The notes under the pieces were generated by a model. The model was not told the origin of the DNA. It made no database searches and saw only the letters and a program-made list of their open reading frames with translations. The position numbers and the translations under genes were made by a program. A DNA stretch of 64,000 nt from Ianthella basta (Eukaryota; Porifera; Demospongiae; Verongiida; Ianthellidae), in NCBI GenBank assembly GCA_964019415.1, contig OZ025871.1, positions 854,629 through 918,628 of the forward strand, written 5' to 3'. Below, one piece after another: positions 55,318 to 58,665 of the stretch (the stretch's first letter is position 1; every line of letters begins with the position of its first letter).

Positions 55318-55408
55318 GTGAGTGCAAGCCTTTCTCCATACATACATGTTTGAAGGGCCATTTCCTTTGTATACATGTTCATGCAAATGTGTGGGTAATA
55401 AGTAATAG

Positions 55409-55522
55409 TTAAATGCTGACCAAGAGGTGTCTCTGAGATTTAGAGCACGAGGCACGAGGGCGCGAAGCGCCCGAGTGCTGAGTGGTCTAAATCTTCAGAG
55501 ACACCGATTGGTCAGCATTTAA
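55409..55522. repeat. Foldback in ROCO4 intron 1
   Basis: Arms AAATGCTGACCAAGAGGTGT and its inverse (GGTGTCTCTGA / TCAGAGACACC core) enclose a second hairpin GGGCGCGAAGCGCCC. Specific to this copy. Confidence 0.75.
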
Positions 55523-55939
55523 GTGTTATAGATCCCAATGATTGGGCAAGGAGGCGGCAGCGAATCACTTTTCCTACTCGTACTTGCGTCATCATGCGTC
55601 TTCCGGAAGTAGTTAGCTACTCCTAACAGTTGGAGAAAACGTCGTGTAATTCGGGTCTTAATTTGGGTTGTTCATCTCGCAGTGGACATTCCCTACAGGT
55701 CGGCAGTGGATGCAGCGCGTCAGCTAAGCGTAAGCTTACTCACTGTCAGTCACGTCAGCCACAGCTTTTCCCAGAGCGGTGTCTTTAACCAAAGCTTGTA
55801 CCCCAGCTCGTAGCTAACCAGTTCCATTCTCGGCTTTTGTTCGTAGCCGCATTGTCGCTTTACCCTGTTTCTCGGTAAAACAAGTGAGCCAGGCAAACTG
55901 TGCATCGTATGTTGTGGCGTTAGCTACTATTGCTTATCA

Positions 55940-56180
55940 CAGCTGCAGTTTCTCTGCTATAAACCACGGCCTAAGCCACGCCCATGCTCTAAATCGGTAT
56001 TTAGAGCATAGCGCAAACGCCGCGCGTGCCACTCCAATGCTCTAAATCGGCATTTAGAGCATAGGCGCGAACACCGCGCGTCGAATTACAACACGGCTAG
56101 ACGAAATAGACCACGGCGCGAAACAACACCCGGGGTGTCTACAACGTTTAGAAACATCGTTTAGACGCACGTTACCATGG
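55940..56180. repeat. Dispersed repeat with two 60-bp palindromic units
   Basis: Two units around ATGCTCTAAATCGG and ATTTAGAGCAT, followed by CGCGCG-rich sequence. Related to 4530-4710. CpG-rich compared with the surroundings. Confidence 0.6.
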
Positions 56181-56271
56181 CAACGGGATCTATTTAGCCA
56201 TTAAACTACGTAGTATGGTGTTGAATGAACACTGGCTTTCTCCTTTGACTTTATGACTCTTCTCTCTCCAG

Positions 56272-56373
56272 ACCTGCCCTCAGTACTGTCATCCTCCAGC
56301 TCCCAAAATGGAGCTACCGCTGCTGACAAGGGACCCTCCACAGAGATGGAGGCACTGAGTACAACACAGCAAG
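56272..56373 (+). CDS. ROCO4 exon 2, alpha linker
   Basis: 102 nt, phase 1-1, acceptor CTCCAG, donor GTATGC. DLPSVLSSSSSQNGATAADK then EALSTTQQ: a Ser-rich flexible linker. Confidence 0.7.
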
Positions 56374-56595
56374 GTATGCTCCATGCAGTGTCACTACACA
56401 CGAGTGCACCTCACAGTATACTGAGTGTGGGAGGTGTTTCTGTGTATACATACATATATTGGCGGTACCAATAAATGACGGTGCTCATGGTTGACATGAC
56501 ACTGCTAATTGAACAACCTATACTTTTGCTAATCTGATACAACATGCCCTCTCCGTTTGTCTCATTACTGACTATTCCCTGTCTTAATACTGCAG

Positions 56596-56736
56596 TCGAG
56601 GTGTTCCCAGAAAAAGCACCATCTCTATTACAAGAAGAACCCTCTCCACAGATAGTCAAAGATGAGGAAAGTGTGTGTGGCGTTGTCAGTGAAGCCACCA
56701 CTGTCCTTTCACAAAGCCAGACAGTGCACTCTGTGG
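56596..56736 (+). CDS. ROCO4 exon 3, beta linker
   Basis: 141 nt, phase 1-1, acceptor ACTGCAG, donor GTAAGT. VEVFPEKAPSLLQEEPS then ESVCGVVSEATT and QTVHSVG. Acidic/Ser-rich. Confidence 0.7.
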
Positions 56737-57097
56737 GTAAGTCCCTTCGTCCTCAGCATACGTAGGTCTCTGAAAACTTGCTCATTCCACCTCACAGTGT
56801 ACTAAATGCTACTTGTGATGGATACACTTGAGTGTGCAAGGACATTGTGTGATTTAACAACATTTGCTGCCATCGCTAGAGAAGCCCCTCCTGTGTACTT
56901 GAAGTGCCTGTACCTCTTGAGTAAATCAAATGTTTACTCTGACATGACTACACAGTTGCCATGTGTTATAACAGTAGGTGGCATTGCCTCATGACATACT
57001 TGTGTTCAGTCCATGGATGTTCATTCTCTGTATCTCACCTCATGCACACATTGAATACATATTGAATGTGTGCCATGTGTCGTCCCTTTCCTTGTAG

Positions 57098-57379
57098 CTC
57101 AACAAGTTCTTGACCTCTTTCGGGACCAGTTCATTGACAAAATGGACGCAGAGACAGTTATCATGGAACTTCACCACAAGGATATCATTGATAGAGGTGA
57201 TCTGAAGACAATCTCAAGGAACCCTAACCCAAGACAACAGAATGAGCACCTTCACTTGTGCTTGAAGGACAAGTGCACTGAGGGAGCCATCAAGACTGTG
57301 TGTGATGTAATCAGCTCAGTGCAGGGCAACCCGAAGATGAAAGCCCTGGGTGCAGCTATGAAGAGGAGTTTGGAGACAG
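57098..57379 (+). CDS. ROCO4 exon 4, CARD
   Basis: 282 nt, phase 1-1, acceptor CTTGTAG, donor GTTAGT. CARD-type six-helix pattern: QQVLDLFRDQFIDKM, ELHHKDIIDRGDLKTI, RQQNEHLHLCLKDK, AIKTVCDVISSVQGN, PKMKALGAAMKRSLE. Expected to bind another CARD protein (adaptor, caspase or kinase). Assignment is by pattern; a DED or another death-fold subclass is possible. Confidence 0.7.
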
Positions 57380-57383
57380 GTTA

Positions 57384-57479
57384 GTGTGTGTGTGTGTGTG
57401 TGTGTGTGTGTGTGTGTGTGTGTGTGTGTGTGTGTGTGTGTGTGTGTGTGTGTGTGTGTGTGTGTGTGTGTGTGTGTGT
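57384..57479. repeat. (GT)n microsatellite after CARD donor
   Basis: Pure GT array starting just after the GTTAGT donor. Confidence 0.95.
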
Positions 57480-57589
57480 TGGTGTTTATGTACGTATGTA
57501 TTTGTATGTGTGCATATGTTGGTAAACAACCATGATCGGTGTGGACTATGCAAGGACCTTGTTCATGCCAACCCAATCTCTCCCTGTAG

Positions 57590-57655
57590 GAGACACCACC
57601 AGTCCCACTGCCCTTTGCTCAGAGTCACACATGAACACACAACACACTGTCACAG
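57590..57655 (+). CDS. ROCO4 exon 5, gamma linker
   Basis: 66 nt, phase 1-1, acceptor CCTGTAG, donor GTAAGT. GDTTSPTALCSESHMNTQHT. Confidence 0.65.
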
Positions 57656-58036
57656 GTAAGTGTGTGCATTACTGTTGGACCAGTGAAGCCATGGCAGTGA
57701 AGGCAGCATGTACCACCAACCATCCTGTAATACTGCATCTCCTGGGTGCTTTAGGTACTGGAGGGAAAGTCCCTTTGGTTGTAGGACCACTTCTAATGGT
57801 ACAGACTTCTATGTTATTGTGAAAGAATGTTAAAATTCGAATGCCATGTGACATAGTTCGGCCACTGTATACTCTCTAGTGATTGGTCCATGTGATTGTC
57901 ACATGGCTAGCGGACATCATTGACAGTCCCTACACTTAGTAGTCTTGTGCCCAGTCCACGTCTGGTCACCATTTTGCAAATTGTCCATAAGGTGGTTTGG
58001 CAATTCTTCTGCTGTCTGCACAATCCTCTCCTTCAG

Positions 58037-58138
58037 ACCTGCCCTCAGTACCGTCATCGTCCAGCTACCAAACTGGAGCTACCGCTGCTGACAAGGGACC
58101 CTCCATAGAGATGGAGGCACTAACTAAAACACAGCAAG
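58037..58138 (+). CDS. ROCO4 exon 6, alpha linker 2
   Basis: 102 nt, phase 1-1, acceptor CCTTCAG, donor GTATGC. Ser-rich with QTGATAADKGPSIEMEA. Confidence 0.7.
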
Positions 58139-58354
58139 GTATGCTCCATGCAGTGTCACTACACACAAGTGCACCTCACAGTGTACCAAGTGTGGGAGGT
58201 GTGTCTGTGCATGTGTGTACATTTACATGGTCTAGTGTGTTTGAGTGGATTGACACAAGTTCACATTAATTCACTTCACACTGAACATAGCTACAACAGC
58301 ACACAAGTGTGTGATTCCAATAACACCTACACTCTGGTCTCAATCCCTCCACAG

Positions 58355-58665
58355 ATGGACCCGCCCCCTTTGACATTGACTCCACCCCCACCTTACATGC
58401 CATCACAAAGTTTGTTGTCCGTGATGTTGCTACCGACTGGACCCTAATAGCCCTCTGTCTTGGCTTTGAGCAACCTGCTATCATGAAGGCTAAATGTCAA
58501 CAATCCATACATTCCTGCACAGCCATCTTCGACCAATGGTTGTCATGGGAACCAGGCACAGGTGAGGAGGACAGAACATGGCGCACTCTCTTGTCCGCAG
58601 TGGAGGGTGCCAGACACAAGACCTTCACACAGCGACTCAAGAAAGAGCTGTTCCACCTCCAGTGA
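58355..58665 (+). CDS. ROCO4 exon 7, C-terminal Death domain
   Basis: 311 nt from CCACAG to TGA, entered in phase 1. Death domain: TDWTLIALCLGFEQPAIM, CTAIFDQWLSWEPG, TWRTLLSAVEG, KTFTQRLKKELFHLQ. W, LG and the W..L pattern are all present. The gene ends here; summed exons give 5394 nt (1797 residues). Confidence 0.8.

Follow-up and report, generated by a model that had tools for sequence, protein, structure and literature searches.

Class 1-1 symmetry, in which an exon of 3n nucleotides (nt) has a phase-1 intron on either side, is a hallmark of metazoan exon shuffling. According to the available text of PMC8001218, such modules occur mostly in extracellular proteins and are mainly beta in structure, the share of mainly-alpha domains is negligible, and the intracellular examples titin and twitchin use beta modules; why class 1-1 shuffling gave more to extracellular than to intracellular proteins is a question posed there. 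Here we describe a 64,000-nt stretch of the genome of the sponge Ianthella basta (assembly GCA_964019415.1, contig OZ025871.1, positions 854,629 to 918,628 of the forward strand; hereafter the window), which holds four copies, ROCO1 to ROCO4, of a family of ankyrin/Roc-like GTPase genes. ROCO4, alone of the four, looks intact, and its coding sequence ends in a tail of short exons, one with a predicted CARD and the last with a predicted Death domain. We consider it likely that recombination assembled this tail, within an expanding tandem family, as a cassette of class 1-1 modules and that it continues to edit it.

Like the modules described by Patthy in the portion of PMC8001218 available, those of ROCO4 have phase-1 flanks, a length of 3n, one exon per domain and duplicated members; unlike that set, they are predicted all-alpha Death folds and, by family, cytosolic. 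Class 1-1 modularity has long been known; what is unusual here is that it serves Death-fold domains, which are all-alpha. CARD and Death exons of this class, if cytosolic and present in large numbers, would depart strongly from the extracellular, mainly-beta pattern. Modular exons are also known from brown algal LRR-ROCO genes, in which, by the available account (PMC11378527), exons of 72 bp encode one LRR each, are in phase 2 and lie on the ligand-binding side, and for which shuffling and alternative splicing have been proposed to serve immunity. In-phase exon modules are common to both systems, but those of the sponge are in phase 1 and on the signalling side. NLRP3 and other LRR exons show strict modularity, a condition for immune-receptor isoforms (PMC6642158, in part), and the sponge tail is likewise modular; that work concerns LRR repeats and has RNA evidence, whereas the CARD, Death and linker exons here are known from DNA alone. 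In lophotrochozoan RIG-I-like receptors, CARD and Death domains have been grafted at the N-terminus of the helicase, and Death-fold exons were gained and lost between paralogues, as they were here (PMC8998645, in part). The word 'phase' is absent from the main text of that paper, as are 'exon', 'intron' and 'phase' from the main text of a survey of sponge NLRs (PMC12909245). We found no account of class 1-1 CARD or Death exons in open-access literature listings, which is not proof of absence. An earlier note on this DNA had offered the layout as undescribed; within these listings that stands for the CARD/Death version, while the class 1-1 rule (PMC8001218) and exon shuffling in ROCO genes (PMC11378527) were already known from the available parts of these sources.

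ROCO4 occupies positions 50928–58665 on the + strand of the window and, with splice sites inferred from the DNA letters, has seven coding exons, all on that strand; each of its six introns is GT-AG and in phase 1, and the joined frame of 5394 nt has its sole stop at its end. The main exon, exon 1 (50928–55317), encodes ankyrin repeats followed by a Roc-like GTPase region and then a 338-amino-acid (aa) region that is COR-like by eye, and ends in a phase-1 donor; it is given as modelled, and an additional coding exon may lie further 5'. The splice-site model continues with two linkers, exon 2 (56272–56373, 102 nt) and exon 3 (56596–56736, 141 nt), followed by exon 4 (57098–57379, 282 nt), for which structure models predict a complete CARD fold. 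A GT repeat (57384–57480) begins 4 nt past the end of the CARD exon. Downstream are the conserved linker exon 5 (57590–57655, 66 nt), a further linker, exon 6 (58037–58138, 102 nt), which self-comparison identified as a copy of exon 2, and exon 7 (58355–58665), which is entered in phase 1, encodes the predicted Death domain and carries the stop codon. Exons 2 to 6 are each, by the inferred splice sites, 3n in length and bounded by phase-1 introns. The earlier note had given exactly these five internal lengths, all class 1-1, and a last Death exon entered in phase 1, and we confirmed both at base level. Module and domain are also predicted to coincide, as the helices of the 93-aa CARD model fall inside residues 2–92, within the one 282-nt exon. 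The first intron contains inverted and direct repeats (55403–56067) resembling a small palindromic mobile element.

Because exons 1 to 6 each end in G, the codon formed at a phase-1 junction is always GNN and therefore never a stop, so any internal exon can be omitted with the frame kept. Whichever of the five internal exons were kept, the frame remained open through to the normal stop (32 of 32 combinations), as expected from the claim of the note that tail exons could be skipped without a frame change, and the junction codon on any joining was GAC, GTC, GCT, GGA or GAT. Duplication, which the note had also thought tolerable, was seen as well: exon 6 duplicates exon 2 with intron flank included (56266–56447 versus 58031–58212; 182 nt, 92% identity), and ROCO1 carries a repeated e3-e2 pair of linkers.

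We compared the tail with those of its paralogues in the C4 cluster. Among the Death matches listed, 30 lie in C4:655–1600 kb, four of them in the window; 20 of the other 26 loci were fetched, giving 24 tails. Phase-1 sites were present at all family CARD exons (20/20), at e3 (21/21) and e5 (22/22), at the Death acceptor in 23 of the 24 tails and at the main-exon donor in 23/23, three of these donors lying 6 or 12 nt further on; e2-type copies kept the acceptor in 40/43 cases and the donor in 42/43. As the scan moved in steps of 3, these counts test the presence of a site and cannot alone show 3n length, for which, as for phase, alignment indels and the free best-site scoring of sampled CARD and Death exons are fairer tests.

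In the 209-Mb genome, CARD-exon and Death-exon matches each numbered at least 150. From the 150 CARD matches listed, 126 of which lie outside the C4 cluster, we chose by hand 40 of those 126 for spread, and 20 Death exons were picked in the same manner among the 150 listed. The sampled CARD exons (16 contigs, 46–69% identical) had class 1-1 best-scoring sites in 38 of 40 cases and a phase-1 donor in all 40. In every sampled Death exon (20/20; 12 contigs, 31–95% identity to whichever of two queries matched better) the best acceptor was in phase 1; 9/20 also had a positively scored phase-1 donor, and 10/20 met a stop within 21 nt. The earlier note had proposed computing exon phases in homologous loci, and across the 24 tails and these samples the phase-1 sites proved to be conserved. 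Splice-site weights were general consensus values, not trained on this genome. A control on five kinesin introns of the same genome gave phases 1, 0, 0, 0 and 0, one with a poor score, and phase 0 was also scored in loci L070 and L074 and at window position 29071; the site scoring is therefore not forced to phase 1, although this control is small. Upstream of one CARD exon, in locus L071 (C2:1294600–1298800), lies an open frame that by eye is reverse-transcriptase-like (LINE).

The note had further held that exons could be swapped with the frame kept. Loss of the CARD exon, of the third exon and of the second linker copy, as well as duplication, was seen between paralogues. Among the 24 tails, we found no CARD exon in L028, ROCO3 or ROCO1, nor in L011, a near-copy of the last; no e3 in L012, L018/L019 or L023; and no second e2 in L014 or L025–L027. 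L028 has an open main frame of 1913 aa and an e2-e3-e2-Death tail without a CARD exon. In ROCO3, the GT repeat of the main-exon donor directly joins sequence that in ROCO2 and ROCO4 trails the GT repeat of the CARD exon, and we therefore infer that exons 2–4 were lost there. ROCO3 as a working CARD-less gene was ruled out by a 103-nt linker and an out-of-frame Death exon, and L028 is the better case. Runs of GT of at least 12 nt within the first 60 nt past the donor were found at 20/20 family CARD exons, 15/23 main exons and 0/86 e2, e3 and e5 exons; random 75-nt stretches of the window had such a run in 3.0% of cases (+ strand) or 0.8% (- strand). Of the CARD exons outside the family, 12/40 had a GT run within 75 nt, against 1/40 on the 5' side. 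The donor repeats point to a specific way in which exons could be lost.

Selection was estimated as dN/dS (nonsynonymous over synonymous divergence), with values summed across locus pairs before the ratio was taken. The dN/dS and indel sets leave out L009, L011, L017, L018, L020 and L026, five of which are close copies of kept loci (98.0–99.9%), while L017 is just 93.3% identical to L016. Values were 0.26 for the GTPase, 0.29 for the next region, 0.45 for CARD, 0.40 for Death and 0.27 for e5; the e2-type linkers gave 1.17 and 0.85, near neutral, one value for each of two queries based on its best match at every locus, with first and second copies not separated, and e3 gave 0.77. These ratios indicate that the domain exons are under purifying selection and that most linker sequence is free to change. 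Distinct indels were 3n in 4/4 cases within e3, and in 1/4 and 1/9 in its flanking introns; CARD and e5 exons had zero indels in the alignments.

The identity of the encoded domains was judged from structure predictions and profile matches. The exon 4 product is predicted to form a six-helix Death-fold bundle of CARD type. Against the Pfam CARD model the window CARD scored 14 bits (cut-off 23.9), and 9/60 relatives matched that model at E 0.01 or better, single members matching unrelated families; in a profile search of the PDB, an unrelated designed protein (E 0.036) came ahead of the NLRP1 CARD (E 0.051). The structure models of exon 7 (best predicted local distance difference test score 94.4, remaining four 78.7–87.3) adopt a predicted Death-domain fold, with 2of5_H of a Death Domain complex (TMq 0.70) and the RIPK1 Death domain (0.66) among the top Foldseek rows, all at E of at least 0.3. 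Against Pfam Death, the window exon scored 12.7 bits (cut-off 22.6); 0/21 relatives matched at E 0.01 and 2/21 matched Abp2, and the PDB profile search returned the CRADD Death domain at E 0.029. The Roc model was matched at E 0.01 or better by 16 of 17 members; the match of the window copy, 22 bits, is under the 27-bit cut-off, and MMR_HSR1 scored slightly higher, above its own cut-off. Neither the C4 cluster nor any of the 17 aligned members gave a COR-A match, the COR likeness being by eye only, and searching PDB profiles with the GTPase region was uninformative. As COR was not detected and the Roc score of the window copy is below threshold, the name ROCO, taken from the earlier note, is provisional for this family and only partly supported. 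The main-exon search listed 19 families, none of them a protein-kinase domain, with exons further 5' outside its range; BCDHK_Adom3 was listed under cut-off with no stretch given. DAPK1 combines a kinase, ankyrin repeats, Roc-COR and a Death domain. ROCO4 resembles it in its ankyrin repeats, Roc-like GTPase and C-terminal Death domain, and differs in having an extra CARD exon, no kinase match in the modelled main exon and no detected COR. Judging by its ankyrin repeats, its GTPase region and its Death-fold domains, the protein probably works inside the cell as a sensor and adaptor, with an ankyrin array, a GTPase switch and a recruiting end made of CARD and/or Death. A gene group separate from the window family, at C20:3.93–4.36 Mb and 6.00 Mb, has long open frames that match Roc and COR-A.

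In the proposed cassette, each internal exon starts and stops after the first codon base, so that duplication, loss or insertion keeps the frame, and the joined exons, ending in G, create no stop at the junctions. CARD and Death each correspond to one such exon, and each belongs to a set of related exons that is spread across the genome and shares its boundaries. The cassette would arise and change by recombination in introns, with the donor repeats as one breakpoint; the symmetry would make the outcomes of recombination readable, and paralogues do differ in the recruiting domains and the amount of linker they carry. The immune role, the recombination route and the usefulness of the variants are putative. 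A different account of the same symmetry is regulated alternative splicing, in which, as the note had suggested, the single locus would yield CARD+Death, Death-only and linker-length isoforms, perhaps steered by the UG repeat just past the CARD 5' splice site, a type of site to which TDP-43-like or CELF-like proteins bind in other animals. The account draws on the openness of every exon skip, the GT repeat behind 20/20 family CARD donors, the tandem in-frame acceptors 15 nt apart in ROCO2, the preference of TDP-43 for UG repeats and the exon skipping that follows its excess (PMC11163724, in part), and the origin of NLRP3 isoforms from modular LRR exons (PMC6642158, in part). However, the CARD splice sites are kept in 20/20 copies and the exon is under purifying selection, as expected of a constitutive exon; just 12/40 CARD exons elsewhere carry the repeat within 75 nt; and frame neutrality alone is not proof of skipping. 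We regard splicing as an improbable explanation of the tail; isoforms from the one locus are nevertheless possible, and the layout would predict forms with and without the CARD. A wider proposal seems to us decidedly doubtful: that this genome runs a large intracellular shuffling of all-alpha class 1-1 Death-fold exons, in which the CARD-donor GT repeats would serve recombination, deleting or exchanging signalling exons from gene to gene, and would also, as UG repeats in the RNA, decide whether a single gene includes or skips its CARD.

The symmetry could also have been inherited passively, with ancestral phase-1 introns arising by accident, being copied in tandem and having no role. The C4 family is indeed a tandem array with some young pairs that are 98–99.9% identical, and all boundaries are homologous; the same boundaries nevertheless recur across 16 contigs in sampled CARD exons of only 46–69% identity, and in Death exons with as little as 31%, exons were gained or lost on at least two occasions, and the dN/dS of the e2-type linkers is near neutral. 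Passive copying therefore strikes us as unlikely. Nor do we favour the idea that the linker exons are not real and that transcripts join only the main exon, CARD and Death. The e2-type dN/dS of about 1 and the 1-nt length of three of the six distinct e2-type exon indels are what it would predict; however, e2-type splice sites are kept (40/43 acceptors, 42/43 donors), e3 indels are 3n in 4/4, unlike those of its introns, e5 has a dN/dS of 0.27, and where the usual, lower AG has been lost, as in a single e2-type exon of ROCO1 and another of L028, the upper AG, 15 nt before it and in frame, remains usable. Unreal linkers are accordingly very improbable.

Several observations weigh against the cassette that we prefer. 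All splice sites are inferred from DNA. With an intron phase ratio of 5:3:2, as quoted in PMC7259759 (seen in part), six phase-1 introns would be expected by chance at ~0.3^6 = 7e-4 if independent, but independence fails because exon 6 copies exon 2 and the paralogues share ancestry. Exon boundaries are homologous, and the many copies are therefore not many independent events; several pairs among the 24 tails are near-copies. In the CARD sample, the best acceptor was more than 3 nt off the family position in 6/40, the L093 Death exon has a phase-0 donor, and among the eight best Pfam Death exons of other families the signal was weak and the phases mixed, 2/8 being phase 1. Near CARD exons, the best sites next to a NACHT exon (L070) and next to an ankyrin-Death exon (L074) were scored in phase 0, so that movement of the CARD exon into unrelated genes is conjectural. 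Indels in e2-type exons were 3n in 3/6, 1-nt indels being present in such exons of L012, L022 and ROCO3, and those in Death exons were 3n in 1/5, a set that includes the broken copy of ROCO3. Since several copies are broken (ROCO1 to ROCO3 and those with 1-nt indels), some exon losses may be decay.

Two further candidates were set aside. Dispersal of the CARD exon into NLR or ankyrin-Death genes has real proximity on its side, a CARD match on C17 ending 1.3 kb ahead of a NACHT match, yet the joining phases do not fit directly. Exon-sized transposition, considered for L070 versus L076–L078, was dropped, as L078 has an insertion beside the exon and the reach of the upstream comparison was limited.

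The other window copies lie on the + strand. The ROCO2 tail (22179–24530) has the same class 1-1 chain, with lengths of 102 (or 117), 138, 282, 66 and 102 nt and then 311 nt. The two in-frame acceptors of its first linker, at 22164 and 22179, account for the 117-nt exon of the earlier note, which reflects the upper of the two; the claim that ROCO2 obeys the same phase-1 rule was borne out. Upstream of this tail, the ROCO2 main exon is frame-disrupted (20114–21663), with an open stretch of 338 aa and ~50 codons missing at a break near 20713. ROCO1, with the tail e3-e2-e3-e2-Death (9548–11405) and no CARD exon found, has a frame-disrupted main exon as well (7423–9327). The ROCO3 tail (40771–42099), from which exons 2–4 are gone at the GT-repeat join, is broken because of its 103-nt linker and its Death exon out of the phase-1 frame. 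Among the few pairs compared, ROCO1 and ROCO2 each have a near-copy matching over ~9.9 kb, at 99.8 and 99.9% identity respectively. Window positions 1 to ~24600 correspond to C4:~734–757 kb as part of a duplication with a spacing of ~122 kb, which would be either a recent segmental duplication or an assembly duplicate. Between the ROCO copies, another gene or gene fragment is repeated (58–1068, 28380–29370, 43661–44334 and 63242–63672), in which acceptor 28386 reads phase 1 and 29071 phase 0. On the minus strand, an open frame at 16948–17589 resembles a Tigger/pogo-type transposase by eye.

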